NCBI RefSeq assembly: GCF_003725695.1
Contig: NZ_RJSE01000005.1
Coordinates: 161,096-225,095, forward strand
DNA from: Nocardioides marmoriginsengisoli
GTDB lineage: Bacteria; Actinomycetota; Actinomycetes; Propionibacteriales; Nocardioidaceae
DNA length: 64,000 nt
Direction of reading: 5' to 3'
Position 1 is the stretch's first letter. The number at the start of each line of letters is the position of its first letter. Shown in pieces: positions 6,711 through 10,216 of this stretch. Under the pieces are notes generated by a model. It searched no databases. It had not been told where the DNA came from and worked only from the letters and a program-made list of their open reading frames with translations. Made by a program: the position numbers and the translations under genes.

Positions 6711-8111
6711 GTGCCCACACCTATCGACCCCACCTCGCTCGGGTTCCTGCTCGCCGAGAACCGCAACCAGCCGATGCACGTCGCCGGTCTGCAGCTGTTC
6801 GAGAAGCCCGCCGATGCCGGCCCGCACTTCGCCCGCGAGCTCTACGAGGCCGCGCTCGACACCGAGGAGATCGCGCCGCTGTTCCGCAAGCGCCCGTCGC
6901 GGAGCATCAGCAGCCTCGGCCAGTGGGTCTGGACCGACGACGCCGAGTTCGACATCGAGCACCACGTCCGGCACAGCGCGCTCCCCGAGCCGGGCCGGAT
7001 CCGGGAGCTGCTCGAGCTGGTCTCGCGGCTGCACGGTCAGATGCTCGGCCGGGAGCGGCCGCTCTGGGAGGCGCACATCATCGAGGGGCTCGCCGACGGC
7101 CGGGTCGCGATGTACACCAAGCTGCACCACTCCTTGGTCGACGGGATCTCGGCGATGAAGCTGATGCAGAGCGTGCTCAGCACCGACCCGGACCGCCGCA
7201 ACATGCCACTCCCCTTCGACGCCCGCGCGGTCCGGTCGAAGAAGGTGCGCGAGCCGTCCGCCCGGGACCTGACCTCGGTCCCGATGGACACCCTGCGCAG
7301 CGCGATGGGCCTGGCCGCGGACGCCGGCGGGCTGCCGGCCGCGCTGATCCGCACCCTCAACAAGGGCGTCAAGAACGAGGCGTCGGCGCTGTCGTTCTAC
7401 GCCCCGAAGTCGATCTTCAACGTGAACATCACCGGGTCCCGCCGATTCGCCTCGGACGGCTGGGCGCTGGACCGGCTGCGGGCCATCTCCAAGGCCAGCC
7501 GGACCACCTTGAACGACGTCGTGCTGGCGATGTGCGGCGGCGCGGTCCGCAACTACCTGATCGAGCTGAACTCCCTCCCCGACACCTCCCTGGTCTCGAT
7601 GGTCCCGGTCGGGCTCAAGTCCCGAGGCTCCGACTCCGAGGCCGGTGGCGGCGGGAACGCGGTCGGCTCGGTGATGGTGAAGCTCGGCACCGACCTGGCG
7701 GACCCGGCCGACCGGCTCGCCGCGATCCACGCCTCGATGAAGGCCGGCAAGGCGGCCCTGGAGTCGATGACGCCGAACCAGATCGTCGCGATGAGCGCGC
7801 TCGGCATGGCCCCGTCGCTGGCGATCCCGATGCTGCGGCTCAACGGGGTCGTCCGGCCGCCGTTCAACCTGATCATCAGCAACGTCCCCGGGCCGCGCAG
7901 CACCCAGTTCCTCAACGGCGCCCGGCTGACCGGCACCTACCCGGTGTCGATCCCGATGCAGGGCATGGCTTTGAACATCACCTGCAACAGCTACGCCGAG
8001 GACATGTGCTTCGGGCTGACCGGCGACCGCCGCCGGGTACCGCACCTGCAGCGGCTGCTGGTGCACCTGGACAGCGAGCTGACCGCTCTGGAGCAGGCTG
8101 TCGGGGCCTAG
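6711..8111 (+). CDS. Wax ester synthase / diacylglycerol O-acyltransferase (WS/DGAT)
   Basis: A 466-residue protein with the catalytic HHxxxDG motif (HHSLVDG, about residues 137-143) and the C-terminal NVPGPRS region (the ND motif of the family is [11 protein letters not shown] here). It transfers acyl groups from acyl-CoA to diacylglycerol or fatty alcohols, making storage triacylglycerol or wax esters at the membrane. Start is GTG 6711 ([13 protein letters not shown]), which aligns with typical family N termini. Its TAG stop shares CTAG with the stop of the convergent ABC-F gene. Confidence 0.92.
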
Positions 8112-9721
8112 AGCGCCAGGACGGCGCCCTGCCAGCGACGGCGCAGCCAGCGGTCGTGCGAGGTCATCAGGACCGTGCCGGGCGTGGCCCGGAGGGCGTC
8201 CTCGATCTCGGAGGCCAGCGCCAGGGAGAGGTGGTTGGTCGGCTCGTCCAGGAGCAGCAGGTCCGGCTCCGCGGCGACTGCCAGGGCCAGCGCCAGCCGG
8301 CGCCGTTGACCCACGCTGAGGTCGCCGATCGGGCGGGTCAGGTCCTGGGGAGCGAGCAGCCCGAGTGACCGCAACGAGGTGCGTCCGCTGCCCGGGGCGG
8401 CCGCGAAGGTCGCGGCCGCGCTCAGGTCCATCCGGGCGAACACCGGGTCCTGCTCGACCATCGCCACCTGTCGGGCCGTCACGGTCACGGTGCCCGCGTC
8501 GGGCTCGATCCGGCCGGCGATCGCGGCCAGCAGGGTCGACTTGCCGCTGCCGTTCGGTCCGACGACCAAGAGCTGGTCGCCGTGGCGCAGGTCCAGCTCG
8601 TCGAGAGCGACCCGCGGACCTGACGGTCCGTCCACCCGGAGCCCGCGGACCGAGACCGCCGGCCCGGTCCCGCCGCCGTGGGCGAGCCGGCCCGCGAAGG
8701 CGATCCGCTTCGGGGGCTTGCGGACCTGGGAGCGCTCGGCGAGGTCGAGCCGTCGCTGGGCATCGTTGACGCGGCGGGCCTGGGCGCGCTCGACGTTGCC
8801 GCCCTTGAACTGGTGGATGAACTTGTCGTTGTCGCGCGGGCCCCGGCCGCGGGCGATCGCGTCGGTGCCGATCCGGGTCTTCTCGCGCAGGCGCTCGAGC
8901 TCGTCCTGCTCGGCGGCGTACTGCTCCTCCCAGCGCCGCCGGCTCTCGGCCTGGTGCTCCAGGTACGCCGAGAACGAGCCGCCGAAGCGGCGGCCGCCCT
9001 TCCCGTCGCTCCCGAGCGCGCCGGCATCGAGGTCGACGATCTCGGTGCAGACGGTGTCCAGGAAGGTGCGGTCGTGGCTGGCCGCGACGATCACGCCGTG
9101 CTGCCGGACCAGCGACTCCTCCAGCAGGCGCAGCGCGTCGCCGTCCAGGTGGTTGGTCGGCTCGTCGAGGAGCAGAACCGCGGGCCTCCGGACGAGCGCC
9201 GCCGCGAGCGCCAGCCGGCTCCGCTGACCCCCGGAGAGCGTCGAGAGCGGACGCTCCCGATCGAGGTCCGCGAGACCGAGGCCGGCCGCCGTGACCACCG
9301 CACGGCGCTCGGCGTCCCACGCATCGTGCTGCGTCGCCCAGGCCAGCACCCGGTCGTAGCGGTTCGCCGCGTCCGGGTCCGTCCCCAGCCGGCCCGCGAG
9401 CTGCTCCAGCTCCGCGACCGCGGCCCGCAACGGCTGCAGCGCCCCGTCGAGGAGGTCGCCGACGGTCCCGGTGACCTGCGGGTCGGGCTCCTGGGGCAGG
9501 TAGACCAGGTCAGCCGGGGCCCGCACCTCGCCGGCGTCCGGGAGATCGATCCCGGCGAGCACCCGGAGCAGGGTGGACTTCCCGGAGCCGTTCTCGCCGA
9601 TCAGGCCGACCCGGGATCCGGGCGCTGCGGTCATGCTCAGGTTGTCGAGGACGGTGCGGACCCGGTCACGGGTGGCGTAGCGCCGGATCAGGTCGGTGGC
9701 GACGAGCGGGGACGGTTTCAT
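8108..9721 (-). CDS. ABC-F family ATPase (possible antibiotic target-protection protein)
   Basis: A 537-residue protein with two ABC cassettes and no membrane segments. The first Walker A (GENGSGKST) is at residues 42-50, signature LSGGQRSR at about 163, LLDEPTNHL follows, then a charged linker (about 225-330), a second Walker A ([10 protein letters not shown]), LSVGQRRR and a second [14 protein letters not shown] proteins bind the ribosomal E site; the ARE subset displaces macrolide, lincosamide or streptogramin drugs. Membership of the ARE subset is inferred, chiefly from the leader peptide and stem that precede the gene, which resemble inducible resistance genes. The Shine-Dalgarno GGAG (9731-9734) and the first base of the ATG lie in or beside the predicted stem. 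Confidence 0.88.
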
Positions 9722-9790
9722 GACGACGTGCTCCAGGAACGGAACGAGGCAGGTCGGGCACGGCCACGGGCACCTGCGGGGACGTCGTCA
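9721..9790 (-). promoter_or_regulatory. Candidate translational attenuator stem covering the ABC-F start
   Basis: In mRNA sense, TGACGACGT (9790-9782) and ACGTCGTCA (9729-9721) are perfect 9-base complements about 52 nt apart. The 5' arm includes the stop codon of the MKI leader; the 3' arm includes the A of the ABC-F ATG and lies just 3' of its GGAG. An inner 6-bp inverted repeat (9749-9754 with 9772-9777) nests inside. A ribosome stalled on the leader would cover the 5' arm and release the start. The mechanism is inferred; the base pairing is read directly. Confidence 0.6.
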
Positions 9791-9799
9791 GATCTTCAT
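9788..9799 (-). CDS. Three-codon leader peptide MKI upstream of ABC-F gene
   Basis: ATG AAG ATC TGA lies 67 nt before the ABC-F ATG. It begins 9 nt after a TAGGGT -10-like element, so the mRNA may be leaderless or nearly so. Its stop codon is inside the 5' arm of the stem that covers the ABC-F start. Very short leader peptides with a basic second residue are known regulators of erm and ABC-F resistance genes. Translation here is inferred from position, not demonstrated. Confidence 0.5.
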   Translation of the reverse strand: MKI

Positions 9800-9808
9800 G
9801 ATGGAACC

Positions 9809-9868
9809 ACCCTACCGAGGCCGGCACCGGGACCAAACCCCTTTTCCGGGCCCGGCCGTCGGTAGGGT
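9809..9868. promoter_or_regulatory. Divergent promoters with mirrored -10 elements
   Basis: ACCCTACCGA (9809-9818) and TCGGTAGGGT (9859-9868) are a perfect 10-bp inverted repeat, extended by GGCCGG (9819-9824) / CCGGCC (9852-9857). Each arm supplies a TAGGGT -10: minus strand at 9814-9809 toward the MKI leader, plus strand at 9863-9868 six bases before the DUF1801 ATG. On the minus strand TTTGGT (9837-9832) is a possible -35 with 17-bp spacing. An AAAA tract (9845-9842) sits four bases farther upstream, reminiscent of WhiB7-type promoters. Promoter and regulator assignments are inferred. Confidence 0.5.
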
Positions 9869-9874
9869 TCGCTC

Positions 9875-10216
9875 ATGGCTGCTGACTGGAGATCCGAGCT
9901 TGTCGACCTGATCCGCACGCTGATCCTCCAGGCCGCGCCGGACGCGGTCGAGGAGGCGAAGTGGCGCAAGGCCTCCAACCCGGACGGCGTGCCCACGTTC
10001 TCGCGCTCCGGGTTGATCTGCACGGTGGAGACCTACAAGGACAAGGTCAAGGTCACCTTCGCCAAGGGCGCCTCGCTCGCCGACCCGGACGGGCTGTTCA
10101 ACGCCAGCCTCGACGCCGGAACCCGTCGGGCGATCGACGTCTTCGCAGGCGACAGCCTCGACCAGGACGCGTTCGCGGACCTGGTCCGGGACGCGGTCGC
10201 GCTCAACCAGGCCTAG
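9875..10216 (+). CDS. DUF1801 domain protein
   Basis: A 113-residue protein with the DUF1801 pattern: an N-terminal helix (LVDLIRTLILQAAPDAVEEAKWRK), then a YKDKVKVTFAKGASLADPDGLFN strand block and a C-terminal helix. The family has a YdhG-like fold and no established biochemical role. The ATG at 9875 is six bases after a TAGGGT -10, suggesting a leaderless transcript. It is divergent from the ABC-F gene with a shared symmetric promoter, and convergent with the dehydratase gene 3 bases downstream. Confidence 0.8.
   Translation: MAADWRSELVDLIRTLILQAAPDAVEEAKWRKASNPDGVPTFSRSGLICTVETYKDKVKVTFAKGASLADPDGLFNASLDAGTRRAIDVFAGDSLDQDAFADLVRDAVALNQA

Follow-up and report, generated by a model that had tools for sequence, protein, structure and literature searches.

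The gene discussed here lies on the minus strand of the window, the 64,000-nucleotide stretch of Nocardioides marmoriginsengisoli DNA that was analysed, and encodes an ABC-F protein. It is preceded by a leader with a promoter, a three-codon upstream open reading frame (uORF) and three RNA stems (P1, P2 and P3), positioned as follows.

8108..9721, minus strand: ABC-F gene, 537 amino acids, ATG at 9721-9719
9721..9729, minus strand: 3' arm of P1, ACGTCGTCA, the last base being the A of the ABC-F ATG (from sequence and fold)
9730..9745, minus strand: P3, a small hairpin GUUCC/GGAGC predicted from the fold of the single sequence, containing the Shine-Dalgarno GGAG (9734-9731)
9749..9777, minus strand: P2, a conserved bulged central hairpin with a GCAGGU/ACCUGC stem, then CG and GGC/GCC pairs
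9782..9790, minus strand: 5' arm of P1, TGACGACGT, the first bases being the uORF stop codon (from sequence, fold and covariation)
9788..9799, minus strand: uORF ATG AAG ATC TGA, Met-Lys-Ile-stop, a short uORF kept in orthologs
9809..9814, minus strand: -10 box TAGGGT (from sequence)
9832..9837, minus strand: -35-like hexamer TTTGGT, 17 bp before the -10 box (from sequence and column preferences in 98 leaders)
9841..9846, minus strand: WblC/WhiB7-like box GAAAAG, with one mismatch to the published GAAAWY

Reading of the minus strand bears out the order given in the preliminary description, with the -10 box, nine bases (9808-9800) and ATG AAG ATC TGA following one another. The complementarity it claimed between a segment opened by the uORF stop codon and the bases ending at the A of the ABC-F ATG is exact, with TGACGACGT (9790-9782) and ACGTCGTCA (9729-9721) matching over 9 bp. 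The distance of 52 nt from leader stop to ABC-F start has to be corrected, as 52 nt is the length of the loop between the two arms and the actual gap is 66 nt. From the promoter sequence, transcription is expected to start 0-3 nt ahead of the uORF ATG, making the uORF apparently leaderless.

The NCBIfam model scoring highest with the ABC-F protein is TlrC/CarA/OleB/SrmB (NF000171), at 389.5 bits against a curated cut-off of 800 bits; the score with NF000355 (ribosomal protection-like ABC-F family), 319.3 bits, is likewise under its cut-off of 380 bits. The closest solved structure by sequence is EttA (218.6 bits). Judged from these scores, the protein is a relative of the producer-type TlrC/CarA/OleB/SrmB ABC-Fs and not a member of that group. 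It is probably a ribosome-protection protein and may confer resistance. The neighbouring genes (7-12.5 kb), judged by eye, show no sign of an antibiotic cluster. At E values up to 1e-90 the gene is found in 100 of 341 genomes of the bacterial family and, of the 394 class genomes sampled, in 75; within the genus, matches at this level are confined to the window genome, and two further genomes among the 24 of the genus have matches of 36-37% near 1e-61.

A perfect helix of at least 9 bp joining the leader's first 25 nt to its last 25 nt arose in 16 of 20,000 dinucleotide shuffles. The fold of positions 9721-9791 has an energy of -31.5 kcal/mol (z = -3.25), equalled by 2 of 200 shuffles, and the window leader folded alone is predicted to form a three-way junction of P1, P2 and P3. 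Among seven stretches folded, two of them from the window, z ranged from -3.25 to -1.87, except for one ortholog leader (L129; z = +0.27) whose fold is not more stable than its shuffles. Searching positions 9600-9950 with the Rfam covariance models gave no match at E up to 1.

Conservation of the uORF in orthologs, which the preliminary description had named as a test that could refute it, is pronounced. Upstream sequences were taken from 98 of the 100 ABC-F matches in the family (of the other two, G088 was read by eye and has the uORF MWI, and G254 was left out), and 16 class matches at E 6.6e-97 and weaker were left out of the upstream set. A strict pattern, defined as TAnnnT, 8-10 nt, ATG, 2-4 more codons and TGA, occurs in 79 of the 98 family upstreams, compared with 0.1 on average, and never more than 1, in each of 20 shuffled sets. 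Outside the family it occurs in 19 of 67 upstreams, and a looser filter kept 35 of the 67. The best candidate uORF of each family leader ends in TGA in all 98 cases and starts with ATG in 93, and the gap between -10 box and uORF start is 9 or 10 nt in 90 of the 98, candidates that were themselves chosen partly on -10 box and spacing. Five-codon uORFs are present in 70 family leaders and three-codon uORFs in 28, including that of the window. The encoded residues vary among family leaders, with peptides such as MWIQD, MLILA and MKISR in one length class and MKN, MWI, MKI, MEL, MKL and others in the other; those outside the family include MRI, MLI, MKL and MEL. MWIQD is the commonest family uORF, with 26 of the 98. 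Among 80 named loci, of which the scripts took in six (L012-L017) and 17 were inspected, L012 from Catellatospora sichuanensis, with the uORF MKL, is by eye the only clear leader of this kind. Twelve leaders between L221 and L235 (family f21) can be read as carrying either the start-stop ATG TGA or, mostly, GTG ATC TGA in the other register.

Pairing of each leader's own uORF and main-start arms was compared with that of permuted arms in 129 of the 165 upstreams (94 of 98 in the family, with L101, L125, L199 and L203 dropped, and 35 of 67 others), giving 121 unique arm pairs. Own arms pair at -19.05 kcal/mol compared with -16.16 kcal/mol for permuted arms (sd of permuted means 0.25), and the best of 10,000 permuted means was -17.09 kcal/mol. 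The excess is clear for three-codon leaders of the family (n = 25; own -18.5, same class -14.9) and for non-family leaders whose uORFs have three codons or fewer (n = 32; own -20.4, same class -16.6), none of 5000 within-class permutations being equal in either group. In the MLxxx leaders (n = 15) 419 of 5000 permutations were as good within the class and 129 of 5000 against all, in the MKxxx leaders (n = 7) 4217 and 82, and in the other MWxxx leaders (n = 15) 100 and 919, respectively. The MWIQx leaders (n = 26) show no own-arm excess (-17.8 for own arms, -18.0 for arms from the same class; 4596 of 5000 permutations did as well within the class and 3987 of 5000 against all) and may therefore work differently. 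The conservation of pairing sought in orthologs is thus present in the three-codon leaders and absent from the MWIQx subclass. Covariation support for P1 in five-codon leaders is weaker, and these may have a different register, with the uORF itself containing the 5' arm (e.g. MLILA, L114).

The stem opened by the uORF stop codon, as the preliminary description drew it, divides along the same line. In the 134 of 165 leaders used for this count, helices of at least 6 pairs (G-U allowed) between the stop-codon arm and the main start occur in 40, all among the 62 leaders whose uORFs have three codons or fewer and none among the 72 with longer ones, indicating that the exact geometry of the window leader belongs to the three-codon class. 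Thirteen of the 40 are family leaders. The whole chosen start codon is paired in 27 of the 40, the chosen starts of f18 leaders being possibly not the true ones, and its pairing often comes with a matching change in the other arm (GACAC with GTG, GACAT with ATG, and G-U versions). A compensatory change, which had also been sought, is found in the ninth pair of the nearest ortholog, L092 (TGACGACGC/GCGTCGTCA). In minimum free energy folds of 120 of the 121 leaders, P1 of at least 5 pairs formed in 95%, compared with 77% of 600 arm-swapped controls; these pair counts are given little weight because the swapped controls pair too.

The readiness of GC-rich leaders to pair, evident in that 77%, is what speaks for a chance origin, in which GC-rich DNA simply happens to hold a brief ATG..TGA frame together with a 9-base inverted repeat. 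The ortholog pattern far above its shuffled mean, the rarity of the 9-bp helix among shuffles and the covariation of both P1 and P2 all stand against it, and we reject this explanation as having next to no probability.

P2 was assessed in an alignment (A1) of 58 of 75 picked leaders, the other 17, mainly f18-type, odd or redundant, having been left out by hand. Its 12 pairs are formed in 96% of cells, 70 cells are double-changed compared with 18.1 in shuffles, and the paired share drops to 33-45% when the pairing is slid. Some letters in the bulges and inner pairs of P2 are nearly invariant, beyond what pairing alone explains.

WblC is reported to bind GAAAWY 3 nt upstream of the -35 element of promoters with 16-19 bp spacing (PMC7157823), and the AT-hook of WhiB7 to bind an AT-rich motif just upstream of the -35 element (PMC3905903). 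The window promoter, GAAAAG-GGG-TTTGGT-17 bp-TAGGGT, resembles these whiB7/wblC regulon promoters, fitting both the box position, 3 nt before the -35-like hexamer, and the spacer, with one mismatch in the box. With up to one mismatch allowed within a 6-position window, 65% of the 98 leaders have the box there, compared with 7% for a control window, and two Wbl proteins of the window genome carry a GRPRK AT-hook. The leader is probably under WhiB7 control. The uORF and fold could then be real and yet only set a constant low level of ABC-F, or answer a general translation defect, with WhiB7 alone responsible for induction. The presence of a WhiB7-like box in roughly two of every three of the 98 leaders, the ABC-F genes in the direct WhiB7 regulon described for Mycobacterium abscessus (PMC10727445) and the variable uORF residues would suit such an arrangement, but the covarying pairing of uORF stop and main start, together with the fixed place of the uORF, would be superfluous for WhiB7 control alone, and we regard it as improbable. 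The whiB7 leader is itself described as subject to uORF-mediated control (PMC10727445) and in this resembles the window leader; unlike the latter, it is long and has a terminator at its end. The two AT-hook proteins of the window genome are WhiB7-like; by eye, one of them, L254, has a long uORF upstream, as expected of whiB7, and the other, L255, not obviously so.

We read the leader as a translational attenuator in which a ribosome stalled on an apparently leaderless three-codon uORF exposes the ABC-F start, and put the probability of this at about 75%. Transcription from the WhiB7-type promoter would begin at the uORF AUG or no more than about 3 nt from it. Unhindered ribosomes would translate Met-Lys-Ile and depart, leaving the RNA to fold into the three-way junction, in which P1, joining the uORF stop region to the main start, and P3 would mask the ABC-F start codon and Shine-Dalgarno. 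If a ribosome were detained on the uORF, as a drug blocking the first peptide bonds might do, its footprint would extend over the 5' arm of P1, and with this arm covered the start site would be freed for ABC-F synthesis. The modelled cost of opening the start site of the window leader is 16.4 kcal/mol when the leader is free and 7.7 kcal/mol with a ribosome on the uORF start. The mean modelled drop in cost for own compared with swapped arms is 5.7 vs 2.1 in family three-codon leaders, 5.0 vs 1.7 in the class from outside the family, 6.3 vs 1.2 in MLxxx, 8.8 vs 3.2 in MKxxx, 3.8 vs 1.7 in other MWxxx and 2.5 vs 1.2 in MWIQx leaders. In the model, then, a stall at the start codon would suffice for opening, which fits drugs blocking the first peptide bonds.

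By eye, none of the stems P1, P2 and P3 in the window is followed by a T-run, and translational control is therefore favoured over intrinsic termination, with an involvement of Rho still conceivable. Attenuation of transcription, with the hairpins serving as terminator, pause or Rho signal and stalling on the uORF letting the polymerase pass, seems unlikely to us. It would accord with the strength and conservation of P2, with the missing P1 covariation in MWIQx leaders and with the induction at the transcription level reported for lmrC and are5sc (PMC8546547, PMC12421871), the transcriptional reporter of tiaA being described as constitutive (PMC12421871). However, the window hairpins lack the T-run, and in many three-codon leaders the main start codon is part of the covarying arm or lies next to it, an arrangement for which a terminator would have no use. 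More tentatively, and with the odds still well against it, the leader could be a new structured RNA family of actinobacteria in which P2 does more than act as a spacer and is recognised by the ribosome, by RNA polymerase or by the ABC-F protein itself, making a leaderless uORF of 1-3 codons a sufficient drug sensor; in one genus this RNA would precede another gene, that of a 58-amino acid basic protein.

A covariance model of the leader (R1), searched in 394 class genomes, has matches in 39. These include 33 of the 75 genomes holding the ABC-F gene, each match lying directly upstream of the ABC-F (by-eye comparison of coordinates); 17 of the 33 are outside the training alignment, though with close relatives inside it, and all nine family genomes among the 75 are matched. 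The remaining 42 of the 75 have no R1 match, and their leaders differ or are lost. Six of the 319 genomes without the ABC-F gene at that threshold are matched: in G409, G473 and G426 the matches are also ABC-F leaders (weaker homolog or contig end), and in G401 and G415 the leader lies upstream of a 58-amino acid basic protein. The covariance-model leader is thus almost confined to the neighbourhood of the window-type ABC-F. The match in G576 (E 0.003) looks like chance, as do those in the genus outside the window genome (E 0.4-0.8).

In erm attenuators, a ribosome stalled on the leader peptide frees a hidden start site; their peptides are longer, and there are usually four pairing segments, unlike the window leader with its one closing stem and nested hairpins. 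Canestrari and colleagues reportedly described in 2020 leaderless poly-cysteine short-ORF attenuators of mycobacteria (referred to in PMC13236596), cysteine-sensing by their title. The window leader resembles these in having an apparently leaderless, putatively regulatory short ORF in an actinobacterium and differs in that its uORF has three codons, none repeated, and an ABC-F gene as its target. The tripeptide uORF before an ABC-F gene is shared with cplR, vmlR and vmlR2, which are resistance ABC-F genes. For cplR of Clostridioides difficile, a Met-Arg-Ile uORF and a 212-nt leader with an intrinsic terminator are described, the main Shine-Dalgarno being sequestered and opened by uORF stalling, and the uORFs given for vmlR and vmlR2 are MIN and MK[L/Q] (PMC10201436). 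Unlike cplR, the window uORF is seemingly at the 5' end, no T-run is present, and the arm pairing with the main start begins with the uORF stop. In Streptomyces, are5sc, tiaA and lmrC are actinobacterial ABC-F genes that likewise have uORFs. The uORFs of are5sc (MLV; 5'UTR of 232 nt) and tiaA (MVGDDDISG; 194 nt) are reported from toeprints to hold ribosomes at the start codon in the presence of lincosamides, streptogramin A and pleuromutilin (PMC12421871). In contrast to the window leader, the 5'UTRs of are5sc and tiaA are long, and lmrC and are5sc use a transcriptional switch; the proteins are ARE5, whereas the window protein scores best with the TlrC/CarA group.

Tripeptide uORFs ahead of ABC-F genes are therefore already known (MRI, MIN, MK[L/Q], MLV). 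In the literature searched, which left most subscription papers outside its scope, no description of this leader was found, nor, in a search on tlrC, a leader peptide with attenuation. New, as far as that literature goes, are the apparently leaderless design, the stem joining stop and start codons, the conserved P2, the WhiB7-like promoter and the occurrence in several actinobacterial families. If the attenuator reading is correct, a leaderless uORF with no more than three codons is enough for ribosome-stall sensing, actinobacteria place such a stall sensor before a widespread, little-studied ABC-F group, and the attenuator, being probably under WhiB7, adds a second layer of control. MRI/MKL-type tripeptides recur in Bacillota ABC-F leaders and here, making readout of a three-residue uORF directly testable.

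Several leaders depart from the common arrangement. L292 (reverse strand) and L293, from one genus of family f29, have a leader with the uORF GTG ATC CTC TGA and P2 in front of a 58-amino acid basic protein, which takes the place of the ABC-F. This protein is conserved between the two genomes (MRNVFPY...GRQGK...YRRH). Neither small basic protein matched Pfam, and a search of eight genomes and their five-genome family gave strong matches in the two source genomes only; those in G000 (E 0.0015) and G367 (E 5e-4 and 0.005) were weak. In L137, L146 and L148 (family f20), the ABC-F gene directly follows an ABC-type ATPase gene (C-terminus identified by eye); no clear uORF is present, and the P2 hairpin is kept between the genes (model E 5e-5 to 1.5e-3). 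L135, L143 and L213 (family f18), with MRN uORFs, have a four-segmented, erm-like look by eye, TGACATCGAGACC pairing with GGTCTCGATGTC. In L143 a later segment, CATCGAGGCCCACC, could by eye pair either with this segment or with a GGGTGG close to what is probably the true start.
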